NCBI GenBank assembly: GCA_019638115.1
Contig: JAHBUK010000003.1
Span: 496,001 to 560,000 of the forward strand
Source of the DNA: Flavobacteriales bacterium
GTDB taxonomy: Bacteria > Bacteroidota > Bacteroidia > Flavobacteriales_F > PHOS-HE28
Direction of reading: 5' to 3'
DNA: 64,000 nucleotides
This document shows positions 5,019 through 9,144 of this stretch, in pieces. Under the pieces are notes generated by a model, which did not search any database, was not told the DNA's origin, and saw nothing but the letters and a program-made list of their open reading frames with translations. A program made the translations under genes and the position numbers. Within the stretch, counting starts at the first letter, position 1. Each line of letters opens with the position of its first letter.

Positions 5019-5089
5019 CTTGGGTCACCCGGCTTCCAGCCGGTGACTGTAGCTTAGCATGTCACCGGCTGGAAGCCGGGTGACCCAAG
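5019..5089. repeat. REP-type perfect 29-bp inverted repeat
   Basis: Two perfectly complementary 29-base arms (5019-5047 and 5061-5089) enclose a 13-base spacer. Each arm contains its own small hairpin, CCGGCT-TCC-AGCCGG. The left arm begins one base after the korB stop and the right arm ends 2 bases before the transposase ATG. A shortened relative lies at 5736-5770. This is the arrangement expected of REP/BIME elements next to their RAYT gene. Confidence 0.9.
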
Positions 5090-5091
5090 CC

Positions 5092-5724
5092 ATGAGCTCC
5101 GACTCCTACATCCTCGAGGATCCATTCTTCGATGACGACCTGGAGACCGTGCGCACCCGACGCAACCTCCCTCATTGGAGCCAAGAGGGCAAACTCTATT
5201 TCGTCACGTGGCGCCTGGCAGATAGCTTACCGCAGAAAGCACTGAAGCAGATCGAGGCAGACCGAAAGGCTTGGTATGGCCAATATGGTGGCACCTCCAT
5301 TGCCGATTTGGAGCCCAGCGTGAGAAAGGAGTGGTATCGCCTCTTTGATCAACGTGTACAACTGTGGCTCGATGCAGGTCATGGCTCATGCATCCTTCGC
5401 AAGCCGGAAGCGAAACGGATCATGGCAGATGCACTGCACCATTTCCATGACAAGCGTTACCATCTGGGCAGCTTCGCGATCGCGGGCAACCATGTGCATG
5501 TGCTCGTCGCGCCCCACCCAACGGTCGAGCTTTCAAGTGTGATCCACAGTTGGAAGTCCTTCACCTCGAACGCGATCAACAAAGCCCTGGGGCGAACCGG
5601 GCGCTTGTGGATGGATGAGTACTTCGATCGCATCTTGCGCAACCAGCTGCACTTGGAACGTGTGGAAGGCTACATCGCCGCGCATGTGCGGCAGGGGGCG
5701 TACGTGGAGCGGCGGCCGAGTTGA
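5092..5724 (+). CDS. REP-associated tyrosine transposase (RAYT, Y1/IS200-like)
   Basis: A 210-residue Y1 transposase of the REP-associated class, a single-strand DNA nuclease thought to recognise REP hairpins. The HUH motif is in GNHVHVLVAPHP. The C-terminal part holds WMDEYFDRILRNQLHL and EGYI, whose tyrosine is the candidate nucleophile. The usual ENPVKAGL tail is replaced here by AAHVRQGAYVE, so activity is uncertain. An ATG at 5059 lies inside the inverted repeat; 5092 is chosen because it starts just after the repeat and gives the family length. Confidence 0.85.
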   Translation: MSSDSYILEDPFFDDDLETVRTRRNLPHWSQEGKLYFVTWRLADSLPQKALKQIEADRKAWYGQYGGTSIADLEPSVRKEWYRLFDQRVQLWLDAGHGSCILRKPEAKRIMADALHHFHDKRYHLGSFAIAGNHVHVLVAPHPTVELSSVIHSWKSFTSNAINKALGRTGRLWMDEYFDRILRNQLHLERVEGYIAAHVRQGAYVERRPS

Positions 5725-5922: not shown

Positions 5923-8574
5923 TCATCGCACGTAGTAGTTGATCGGAAGCTCGACTATCTCATCTGTCGGTTTTCCCTTTCGGATAGCGGGCTCCCATAT
6001 GGGCATACCCCGTAGAACACGGTTCACCTCATTGGTGAATTCTTCCGGCGGGCCGAACAGGACCCCGATCTCACCGATCGTACCATCGCGTAAGATGGTT
6101 ACGGGCACCATCACGGAGATGCTGTTCTCACCACGGTATCTGAAGTTCTGACCGAGATATTGCTCGTATGCTTGGTCACCACCAGGAAACCTGGGAGCAC
6201 GATCAGCTTCGCTTGGTGAAATACCCTCCCCCCAACACGGGAATACCACCCCCATCAACGCACTCCTGAACTCCTCCCGCTTCGCCCGCGCCTGTTGCCG
6301 TTTCGCCTCCAACTCCAGCCACTGCAAGTGCCGCGCCTGTTCCACCAAGTCGTTCACCAAGGAGGTGGTGACCTCTGGCGTGCGTACCATCCTGCGCAAG
6401 CGCTCCTCATCGGAAGGTTCCATGCTTAGCGTGATCGGACCCGGAGCGGTGATGTCCTGGCGCGATGCTGCGTACAGCACGCCATCCTTGCGGCCCATGC
6501 ACACGAGGTCGTACTGGAACAAGGCGTTCAGGTTCTCGGTGAAGGTGCCATTAACCTCCAATACGCGCTGGTAGCTGTTCAGCTCCTTCGGGATCAGGTA
6601 CACGCGCAGGTCGCTGAAGAGCTCCTTGTCCGCCACGTCGATGGAGACAGGCGAGTAGGTGAGCGTGGCGGTCTTGCCGCTTTGGTCGTCCGTGTAGGAC
6701 ATGGAAGTGCGTGAGGTGGTCGCGGCCAGCACGGCCTTGTCCACGTTCCACCAGCCGGGGTTGGTGACGGGCACCGCGAAAGCAGCGCGTGGTGGGTTGG
6801 GCGGTGGCACCGGGTAGCCCAGTTGTTCGTAGACCGAGCGCAGGTTCGCGCTGAACTCCTTGACGAAACGCTCGCCGTCCTGCTGGATGTCCTTCATCTG
6901 CCGGTCCACCTGCCGCTTGTGGGCTTGTTGGTCCGCTTCGGCTTCCTTGCGGTGGAACGCCTCTTGGGTCTTGCGGGCCGCCTCAGCATAGCGTTGGCTC
7001 CATTCGGTGTACACCCTTCGCAAGCGCTCCGCAGCGTATGCAGGCAGTTCCACCCGCCCATCGTTCCGCAAGGCGAAGGATGCGAAGGCCCCATGCCCCA
7101 TGCGCACGGCCATGGAGTCCAACTGGCTCAGGTTCCTGTCCAGGTTGTTCACGTAGAGGTCCAGCACTTGGCCATCGCAGGTGCGATGGATCTCCCGCAT
7201 GCGCTCCTCGAACTCCCGTGTAGCGAGGTTGGTGCCGTTGAAGCGCTCGTTCCAGATGGCTTGGACCTTGGCGGGGTCAATGCCCATTTGGCCTCTTGAG
7301 GCCGAGGAAGCCATGTCAACGTATCGGAGGATCTGATCGATCTCCGCATCGCTGAGATCGTGTGGCGTCATAACACTCTTATTCCATTTTCTGAACAACT
7401 CGTTCGCATAAGGATTACCCGTCTTGAGGTAGGCTGAGCTGTTCTTGATCCATGCGTAGATGTCGCCTCGACCTTCCCAGCGTTGCCTTGCACCGGTCAG
7501 GGCAGGGCCGGTCAGGTTTCTTTCCGGACGATGGCACGCTGAGCAGTTCGTCGCAAATAGGAAGGCTCCGTTGATGTGGTCGGGGTCCGGACGAATAGCT
7601 CTCCTTGAGTATTCATCATACGAAAGGGTATCCGGGAATGCCAATGTCGAATCCGATCCGAAGGAGGTATAGCGGGAGTATTCCGCACTGAACGACCAGT
7701 ACAAACTATCCGTGTACCGCTTGTCCGTCGCATCCTTCCCCAACTCCGCCACCTTCGCCAAGTACCCCGGCGGGTAGAAGTCCAGTGTGGTGATGTCCAC
7801 TGGCACCAAAGTGCGTGTCAAGGGCTGCGGGTTGCGCCAATCCACGATGCCTTCCGCGGTCATCACGCCTTCGTAAAGCATCATGCGTGGGTCGGCTTTG
7901 TCCGCAGGTACCATTACCGTCAACGGTTTGCTGGGGTCGATGCCCACGCGCTTTCCATCCACCTGCGCATCGAGGTAGAACATGCCGCCGGTCTCCAATA
8001 GCGTATCGCCGCTCATGGTGCTGAGGCCCGCTTTCATGATGTCCACGCCATCGATCGCCTCGAGCAGCGTGACGCGTACGGGCTTGGTGATCGCCTTGCC
8101 GGCCTCATCGATGAAGGCACCCTTCGGAATGTCCACCACGAGGCCGTTCGGGGTGAGCAGCGTGGTATCAGCCTTCGGGTCGATGGTCATGACCAAGGCC
8201 GGAAGGCCGGTGCCTGAGGTGTCGCTCAGCGTGAGCTGTTGTTCGGTGTGCGCTGCATCGCTGCTCGTTAGATCCGCAAGGAAGTTGCCCTCCTTCGCCA
8301 GCATCCATCCGCCTACGGCAAGTATGGCCACCACCACCGCACCTCCCATACCCGGTGCCCACTTGCCGAACTTGTAGCTCCGGTAGGCTTTGTCCACCGC
8401 AGGGCGCAGCGCCAGACGTTCGATGCCGGCATGCAGTGCGCGTTGGTCATCCACCAATTCGCGTAGCTCTTCGCTGCTACGCATGCGCTCCTCGAAGGCG
8501 GCGCGGTCGGTGGCGTTCATTTCACCGCGCAAGTAACTGTCGGCGAGTTCGATCAGGGTCAATTCGTTCCGCAT
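5923..8574 (-). CDS. Membrane anti-sigma-like protein with c-type cytochrome and TonB C-terminal domains
   Basis: An 883-residue protein with an unusual order of parts. Residues 1-55 resemble the cytoplasmic start of Bacteroidota anti-sigma factors (LADSYLRGEMNATDRAAFEERM). One membrane segment is at ~77-92. Then comes a periplasmic beta-rich region, a c-type heme site CSACH at 344-348 with a likely distal Met402 (SVMTPHDLSDAEIDQIL), a charged coiled coil around 520-610, and a TonB-type C-terminal domain over the last ~110 residues (VPVTILRDGTIGEI, then MPIWEPAIRKGKP). It starts 3 bp after the ECF sigma gene, so it is the natural partner of that factor. Redox, oxygen or heme sensing is inferred only from the cytochrome domain. 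Confidence 0.82.
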   Translation of the reverse strand: MRNELTLIELADSYLRGEMNATDRAAFEERMRSSEELRELVDDQRALHAGIERLALRPAVDKAYRSYKFGKWAPGMGGAVVVAILAVGGWMLAKEGNFLADLTSSDAAHTEQQLTLSDTSGTGLPALVMTIDPKADTTLLTPNGLVVDIPKGAFIDEAGKAITKPVRVTLLEAIDGVDIMKAGLSTMSGDTLLETGGMFYLDAQVDGKRVGIDPSKPLTVMVPADKADPRMMLYEGVMTAEGIVDWRNPQPLTRTLVPVDITTLDFYPPGYLAKVAELGKDATDKRYTDSLYWSFSAEYSRYTSFGSDSTLAFPDTLSYDEYSRRAIRPDPDHINGAFLFATNCSACHRPERNLTGPALTGARQRWEGRGDIYAWIKNSSAYLKTGNPYANELFRKWNKSVMTPHDLSDAEIDQILRYVDMASSASRGQMGIDPAKVQAIWNERFNGTNLATREFEERMREIHRTCDGQVLDLYVNNLDRNLSQLDSMAVRMGHGAFASFALRNDGRVELPAYAAERLRRVYTEWSQRYAEAARKTQEAFHRKEAEADQQAHKRQVDRQMKDIQQDGERFVKEFSANLRSVYEQLGYPVPPPNPPRAAFAVPVTNPGWWNVDKAVLAATTSRTSMSYTDDQSGKTATLTYSPVSIDVADKELFSDLRVYLIPKELNSYQRVLEVNGTFTENLNALFQYDLVCMGRKDGVLYAASRQDITAPGPITLSMEPSDEERLRRMVRTPEVTTSLVNDLVEQARHLQWLELEAKRQQARAKREEFRSALMGVVFPCWGEGISPSEADRAPRFPGGDQAYEQYLGQNFRYRGENSISVMVPVTILRDGTIGEIGVLFGPPEEFTNEVNRVLRGMPIWEPAIRKGKPTDEIVELPINYYVR

Positions 8575-8577
8575 CGC

Positions 8578-9144
8578 TCAGGGTTGTTGGATGTTGGCGA
8601 CGGATCCCTGTGCGAGCAACGAGCGGTAGCGCTTGCGGGCCTCCTCCAGGCACTTGTACTTCCGCGTCTTGGCCGCGCCCTCGCCCGCCAGCCCGATGGA
8701 CTTGGCGATGGTGAGCAGCGGTTCCTTCAGCAGGTAGAAGCGTTGGAGGAGTTCCAGGCATTTGCCACCGAACGACCGCAGTGCAAGTTCGGCCATGGCA
8801 AGGCGGCCTTCCTCGGCGAGCATGGCGCCGAGGTCGCCGGGCTCATCGGCCAAGGTTTCGAGCTCCTGCGTGAAGCGGCCCTGCCTCCGCAGCTCCTCCT
8901 GCCACTTGTTGCGGCAGATGGCGTAGAGGTAGGTGCCGATGGAGCAGGTGAGCGTGAATGTCTCGTCCTTCGCCTTGCCGAGCAGGATGATCAGCGCGTC
9001 CTGGAACAGGTCCTTGGCATCGGCGCGTGTGCCGCCATGGTTGCGCACCATGCGCTCCACCTTGGGCAGATGCGCATAGAGTTGCACAAGGGCCTTGTGA
9101 TGTGGCCCTGATCGCAGTTGGCTGATGATCTCCTGGTCGCTCAT
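8578..9144 (-). CDS. ECF-type RNA polymerase sigma factor
   Basis: A 188-residue sigma-70 family protein of the extracytoplasmic-function class. The region 2 text runs from LYAHLPKVERMVRNHGG through DAKDLFQDALIILL and GTYLYAICRNKWQEELRR; the C-terminal half (LLQRFYLLKEPLLTIAKSIGLAGEGAAKTRKYKCLEEARKR, positions near 8650-8760) is the region 4 helix-turn-helix. The anti-sigma-like gene begins 3 bp downstream on the same strand, the standard arrangement of a membrane-controlled ECF regulator. Its targets are not visible in the window. Confidence 0.9.
   Translation of the reverse strand: MSDQEIISQLRSGPHHKALVQLYAHLPKVERMVRNHGGTRADAKDLFQDALIILLGKAKDETFTLTCSIGTYLYAICRNKWQEELRRQGRFTQELETLADEPGDLGAMLAEEGRLAMAELALRSFGGKCLELLQRFYLLKEPLLTIAKSIGLAGEGAAKTRKYKCLEEARKRYRSLLAQGSVANIQQP

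Follow-up and report, generated by a model that had tools for sequence, protein, structure and literature searches.

A putative anti-sigma factor with an ActA-type cytochrome domain suggests a link between respiration and a gene switch in some bacteria

The window, a 64,000-nucleotide stretch of a Flavobacteriales contig, carries an ECF sigma factor gene on its minus strand and, 3 bp after the stop codon of that gene, the ATG of a gene for a much longer protein, P0001 (Table 1). The sigma factor is assigned to the ECF family by TIGR02937 (45.4 bits against a cut-off of 42.9). Both ORFs of this pair, first pointed out in a preliminary description as an ECF sigma gene with an 883-residue partner, were recovered at the positions tabulated here; an ORF artefact was considered and set aside. 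A transposase-like ORF (5059-5724, plus strand), of the REP-associated tyrosine transposase type by eye, separates the anti-sigma gene from 2-oxoacid:ferredoxin oxidoreductase genes. At a syntenic locus of another genome of the genus (G040, L058), the oxidoreductase genes adjoin the anti-sigma gene without such an ORF.

Table 1. Coordinates of the sigma factor locus in the window, and of three related copies elsewhere
Feature	Coordinates	Strand	Basis or remark
ECF sigma factor gene	8578..9144	-	188 aa; Pfam Sigma70_r2 4.6e-10; NCBIfam sigma70-ECF above cut-off
P0001, anti-sigma / cytochrome c / TonB-like protein	5923..8574	-	883 aa
Putative cytoplasmic anti-sigma domain, residues 1-60	8395..8574	-	family alignment A1
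Membrane helix, residues 77-95	8290..8346	-	sequence and low-confidence model
Conserved periplasmic domain 1, residues about 115-305, undescribed	7660..8232	-	alignment A2
Inserted ActA-type mono-haem cytochrome c domain, residues 333-421	7312..7578	-	Pfam, PDB, own ActA
CSACH haem-attachment site, residues 344-348	7531..7545	-	sequence
Met402, likely distal haem ligand	7369..7371	-	column conservation
Conserved periplasmic region 2, residues 429-790, undescribed	6205..7290	-	alignment A3
TonB-like C-terminal domain, residues 790-883	5926..6207	-	Pfam TonB_C, Foldseek; optional in family
Promoter-like element GGGTCACCTTT-N12-CATCAA	9163..9191	-	18 nt ahead of sigma ATG
Sigma-less copies	L116:2519-4861, L117:2452-4650, L186:1429-3636		membrane-anchored; cytochrome and both periplasmic domains

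The N-terminus of P0001 resembles an anti-sigma domain, a likeness that is weak in this protein alone and much clearer among its relatives. P0001 itself matches the anti-sigma model NF052375 at E = 0.07 over the whole protein and 0.036 with the N-terminus alone, below the curated cut-off. Among the 34 members of the N-terminal alignment (A1), 21 match NF052375 (best 2.4e-6) and six match zf-HC2, which bears out the anti-sigma-like start read earlier from P0001. An ECF sigma gene lies directly beside every one of the 36 examined copies that have the anti-sigma domain, a conservation of linkage far above chance; the preliminary description had called for a check of linkage in relatives, and no such copy with an unlinked sigma gene was found. 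Together with the anti-sigma homology, this upholds the proposed pairing of the two genes. The single membrane segment claimed for P0001 appears as a helix at residues 77-95 in a low-confidence model. This AlphaFold model of the full protein (from an alignment of five rows; pLDDT 48, pTM 0.31) is usable for the beta domain at 630-730 and the TonB-like fold, both only in part, and a model of the sigma factor with the N-terminus of P0001, in which the sigma stop codon was read as glycine to give a single chain, reached pLDDT 45 and pTM 0.32, too low for any docking of residues 1-55 on sigma to be read from it. We conclude from homology and linkage that P0001 probably holds the ECF sigma factor in check at the membrane. 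Three copies (L116, L117 and L186) have neither the anti-sigma domain nor an adjoining sigma gene, which suggests that the periplasmic part may also function independently. The genus also contains short sigma/anti-sigma pairs (L062-L067, about 290-350 aa) with the same anti-sigma domain, joined in most of them to a TonB-like end, with the long periplasmic part absent.

Relatives of P0001 turned up in many families of its class when genomes of the genus and of the class were searched. Their common core consists of the anti-sigma domain, the membrane helix, a periplasmic domain at about residues 115-305 and a periplasmic region at 429-790. Thirteen columns of the first periplasmic domain are invariant across 30 members (A2), as are 12 columns of the second region across 31 members (A3). 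Profile searches with the two parts gave no PDB sequence match and nothing convincing in Pfam, and Foldseek with the P0001 model returned nothing at E <= 0.001. The second region is predicted to be helical, with a coiled coil and a beta-sandwich at about 620-720 (pLDDT 73-85 over most of 630-730); the coiled coil noted previously corresponds to helices 514-584 and 737-777 of the low-confidence model.

The remaining two modules are variable. The TonB C-terminal domain that had been reported is supported as a TonB-like end: Pfam TonB_C covers residues 820-880 (1.9e-4) with 22.3 bits, just under the cut-off of 24.6, and Foldseek pairs it with 6i97_D (prob 1.00, TMt 0.59, but E 0.18). It is missing in several close relatives; the idea of the TonB end as an essential part was set aside because many members are without it. 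The cytochrome, which always lies between the two periplasmic domains in members that have one, is likewise absent from some members of the genus (G036, G013, G008, G039, G016 and G040). By sequence, the genes that flank the G040 copy (L058) are those of the window, 2-oxoacid:ferredoxin oxidoreductase to one side and a nadE-like gene to the other, and this copy therefore represents the orthologous locus without the insert. As the cytochrome and the TonB-like end are each optional even inside the genus, the central mechanism cannot lie in either of them.

The inserted domain has what a c-type cytochrome requires to bind haem. Pfam Cytochrom_C matches residues 335-420 above its cut-off (3.6e-8), the CSACH site is present, and the column of Met402 holds Met in all 19 inserted cytochromes that reach it and in 99 of 99 ActA domains. 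Its top PDB match is subunit A of alternative complex III (6btm_A, 1.6e-15), and it shares 66% identity with the N-terminal domain of ActA from its own genome. When this genome was searched with the whole of P0001, ActA was the only cytochrome relative found; an ActE-like protein, also a mono-haem cytochrome and encoded in the ActA operon, was not recovered. The genome carries an ACIII-aa3 gene set headed by actA, with an actB-like Fe-S/molybdopterin protein, NrfD, a mono-haem cytochrome, COX2 and COX1. P0001 has a single CxxCH motif, compared with six in its own ActA, and the pentahaem region is absent. In Flavobacterium johnsoniae, the N-terminal domain of ActA is described as mobile and membrane-anchored, carries the sixth haem and is proposed to act as an electron shuttle to cytochrome aa3 (PMC8552683). 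Judged by these comparisons, the inserted cytochrome stems from ActA, the ACIII subunit that passes electrons to aa3, and specifically from its mobile haem domain; a generic cytochrome origin was set aside, the insert being closest to ActA. Small stand-alone cytochromes of about 160-205 aa (L262-L265 and L170) also lie near the inserted and ActA domains and are possible alternative donors. Of the earlier interpretation, the sigma pairing, the haem-competent cytochrome with its CSACH site and likely distal ligand Met402, and the TonB-like end all stand, while the ActA origin, the optional nature of the modules and the two-domain periplasmic core had been missed. Its proposal that the haem senses redox state, oxygen or haem supply remains a conjecture.

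In a tree of 137 cytochrome domains, the inserted cytochromes are scattered and form no single group. Those of the genus fall inside the ActA clade of the genus (96/95), the G231 insert inside the ActA clade of family f20 (99/95), the G196 insert inside that of f11 (100/96) and eleven f41 inserts inside that of f41 (99/96); the inserts of G459 (99/96) and G424 (99/98) are sister to the ActA of their own genomes. A single clade of inserts was rejected (delta lnL 195, AU p = 2.4e-7; the test group omits G074 and G126, whose rows are the least certain). Mean identity of the inserts is mostly 44-70% to ActA of the same lineage versus 26-42% to the inserts of other families. The G231 copy (L119), which is truncated and contains stops, was given less weight. 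In this copy, a sigma-type element stands at the start of the remaining ORF (L119:3704-5224), just ahead of the cytochrome, and it reads as if the sigma gene and the N-terminal half were lost.

The tree of the rest of the protein requires eight changes in the presence or absence of the cytochrome, at least five of them forced by well-supported branches, and gains can be told from losses at some branches only. The sister of the window protein, G036, has no cytochrome (100/99); given that its sigma factor is 97% identical to that of G007, which has one, G036 probably lost it. Within f41 the insert looks mostly inherited. Even so, f41 inserts are more similar to ActA of their own genome than expected once row and column effects are removed, by a mean of 7.4 points (p = 5e-5) or, leaving out G424 and G459, by 4.7 points (p = 5e-5), in a permutation that models phylogeny incompletely. 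Third codon positions show an own-ActA excess too, weaker and modest, which points to some contribution of gene conversion or re-capture in part of the genomes. Taken together, the grouping by lineage and the tracking of own ActA imply repeated capture, gene conversion or coevolution.

A conserved promoter-like element precedes the sigma gene. It is exact in the window, where 0.22 would be expected at up to 3 mismatches, and it or a slight variant stands upstream of all 16 family sigma genes compared in the genus, with diverging flanks; elsewhere in the class, a variant of about GGTGACCTTTT-N-CATTAA precedes most family sigma genes. The pair's own site is the only one in its genome (4.06 Mb) with 2 or fewer mismatches. 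A regulon search of this genome gave no second strong site, with 3-mismatch sites at chance (18 in all, against 15 in the control), and thus identified no respiratory target gene. A scan of 44 genomes of the genus gave 43 element sites, against 2 for a reversed control, and the majority of the sites read stand before a sigma gene of the P0001 family. Others lie ahead of exported proteins, some with OmpA domains, that share periplasmic domain 1 (L330, L337 and L346-L348), a TPR/WD40-repeat gene (L334), MORN-repeat genes (L326 and L329) and an OmpA-domain gene (L353). Exact copies also precede GldN-family genes in two other genomes of the genus (L325:1500-2388 and L351:1500-2385; Pfam GldN 1.5e-63 and 3.1e-57), each of which has another GldN-like ORF before it; the sigma family may thus be connected with components of type IX secretion or gliding. 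We read the element as pointing to autoregulation and, in relatives, to an envelope-related regulon.

Our best overall explanation, to which we give an even chance, is that P0001 is a class I-type anti-sigma factor in which an optional ActA-type domain supplies a redox input from respiration. P0001 would bind the ECF sigma factor at the inner face of the membrane until a signal, presumably of an envelope type, reached the two conserved periplasmic domains and freed it; the freed sigma factor would then transcribe its own operon from the putative promoter. Because close relatives such as the sister G036 are without the cytochrome, this switch would work without it. In members that have the insert, the haem domain of the host's ActA has been placed in the loop between the two periplasmic domains. 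Since its haem ligands are kept and its sequence follows that of own ActA, the cytochrome, if loaded with haem, most likely docks with ActA's respiratory partners, and it would thereby add an electron-flow input that alters the release of the sigma factor in one direction or the other. The TonB-like end would be a second optional module that may contact outer-membrane or TonB-system partners. More tentatively, and at somewhat below even chance, we propose that the ActA shuttle has been hijacked repeatedly: the anti-sigma factor would mimic it, dock with the ACIII-aa3 supercomplex and read electron flow, and would be kept in step by coevolution or gene conversion. Note that gene conversion, and not a shared partner, could be what makes the inserts track own ActA.

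The alternative that survives best, although we consider it unlikely, is that P0001 is an anti-sigma factor responding to the state of the envelope, in which the cytochrome is a passenger that leaves sigma unaffected, being either a tethered extra electron shuttle of the respiratory chain or a neutral insert. The many members without a cytochrome, the sister of the window protein among them, would fit such a passenger, as would its retention in the sigma-less copies, and the recurrence of periplasmic domain 1 in OmpA-domain proteins with the same element argues for envelope control. Repeated gain at one place in a regulator, with the ligands kept in 19 of 19, is nevertheless hard to explain if the insert is neutral. 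It is less probable still that the domain is a sentinel of cytochrome c maturation, a decoy whose apo-form misfolds when haem or thiol reductant is short, leading to degradation of the anti-sigma factor and release of sigma. The conserved haem ligands fit this idea, as does a domain copied from one of the cell's own clients; however, maturation requires little past CxxCH, whole-domain tracking of own ActA is not predicted, and an unsystematic look noticed no link to maturation genes.

We regard as highly improbable a single ancient gain of the cytochrome followed by many losses, with the likeness to ActA due to convergence or to tree error on a short domain. The domain does offer only about 100 columns, with many open forks and long branches, the cytochrome always sits between the same two domains, and loss is the simplest reading for G036, but the rejection of a single clade and the closer identity to same-lineage ActA than to other families' inserts already disfavor this history. 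That the two genes are chance neighbors and P0001 a TonB-like respiratory cytochrome with no regulatory role is barely credible, because only the three sigma-less copies speak for it, against the unbroken sigma linkage of copies with the anti-sigma domain, their anti-sigma homology and the many members without a TonB end.

Our findings suggest that these bacteria have coupled a gene switch to respiration. Class I anti-sigma factors are reported to adjoin only 6% of Bacteroidetes ECFs (PMC7406223). A regulator with the domain of its host's respiratory shuttle would be a direct, testable tie between electron flow and transcription. Furthermore, several captures in one family, together with insert-free orthologues, constitute a natural experiment on the role of the module and on the contacts of the ActA domain.

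Our search, which covered the open-access literature, turned up no description of a cytochrome c domain in an ECF anti-sigma system, and the survey of class I anti-sigma factors mentions neither cytochrome nor haem (PMC7406223). In class I pairs of the RseA, RskA and RsiW type, as at the P0001 locus, the ECF gene comes first, the next gene encodes a protein that crosses the membrane once and starts with a short helical domain, and a promoter-like element stands before the sigma gene. P0001 differs from them in its large, undescribed two-domain periplasmic part and in its optional cytochrome and TonB-like modules (PMC7406223). Another ECF sigma factor of the Bacteroidota, SigP of Porphyromonas gingivalis, is tied to type IX secretion genes (PMC4800418). 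The GldN-family genes with the element in two other genomes recall it by their putative function, whereas SigP acts with the PorXY two-component system and the genome of P0001 itself shows no type IX-type target. The N-terminal haem domain of ActA (PDB 6btm; PMC8552683) belongs to the same domain family as the insert and has the same haem ligands; in ActA it precedes a pentahaem cytochrome, while P0001 carries it within a putative anti-sigma factor. Periplasmic sensors with covalent haem are known from Geobacter, namely the chemotaxis sensors GSU0582 and GSU0935, but with a PAS fold (PMC3460858), and haem-Cache domains are sensors that gained a cytochrome-derived motif, but as a short fragment within a Cache domain (PMC12889525). 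Unlike these, P0001 has a whole cytochrome, with predicted haem, that comes from its host's respiratory complex and appears to have been acquired repeatedly, and it carries this domain in a putative anti-sigma factor.
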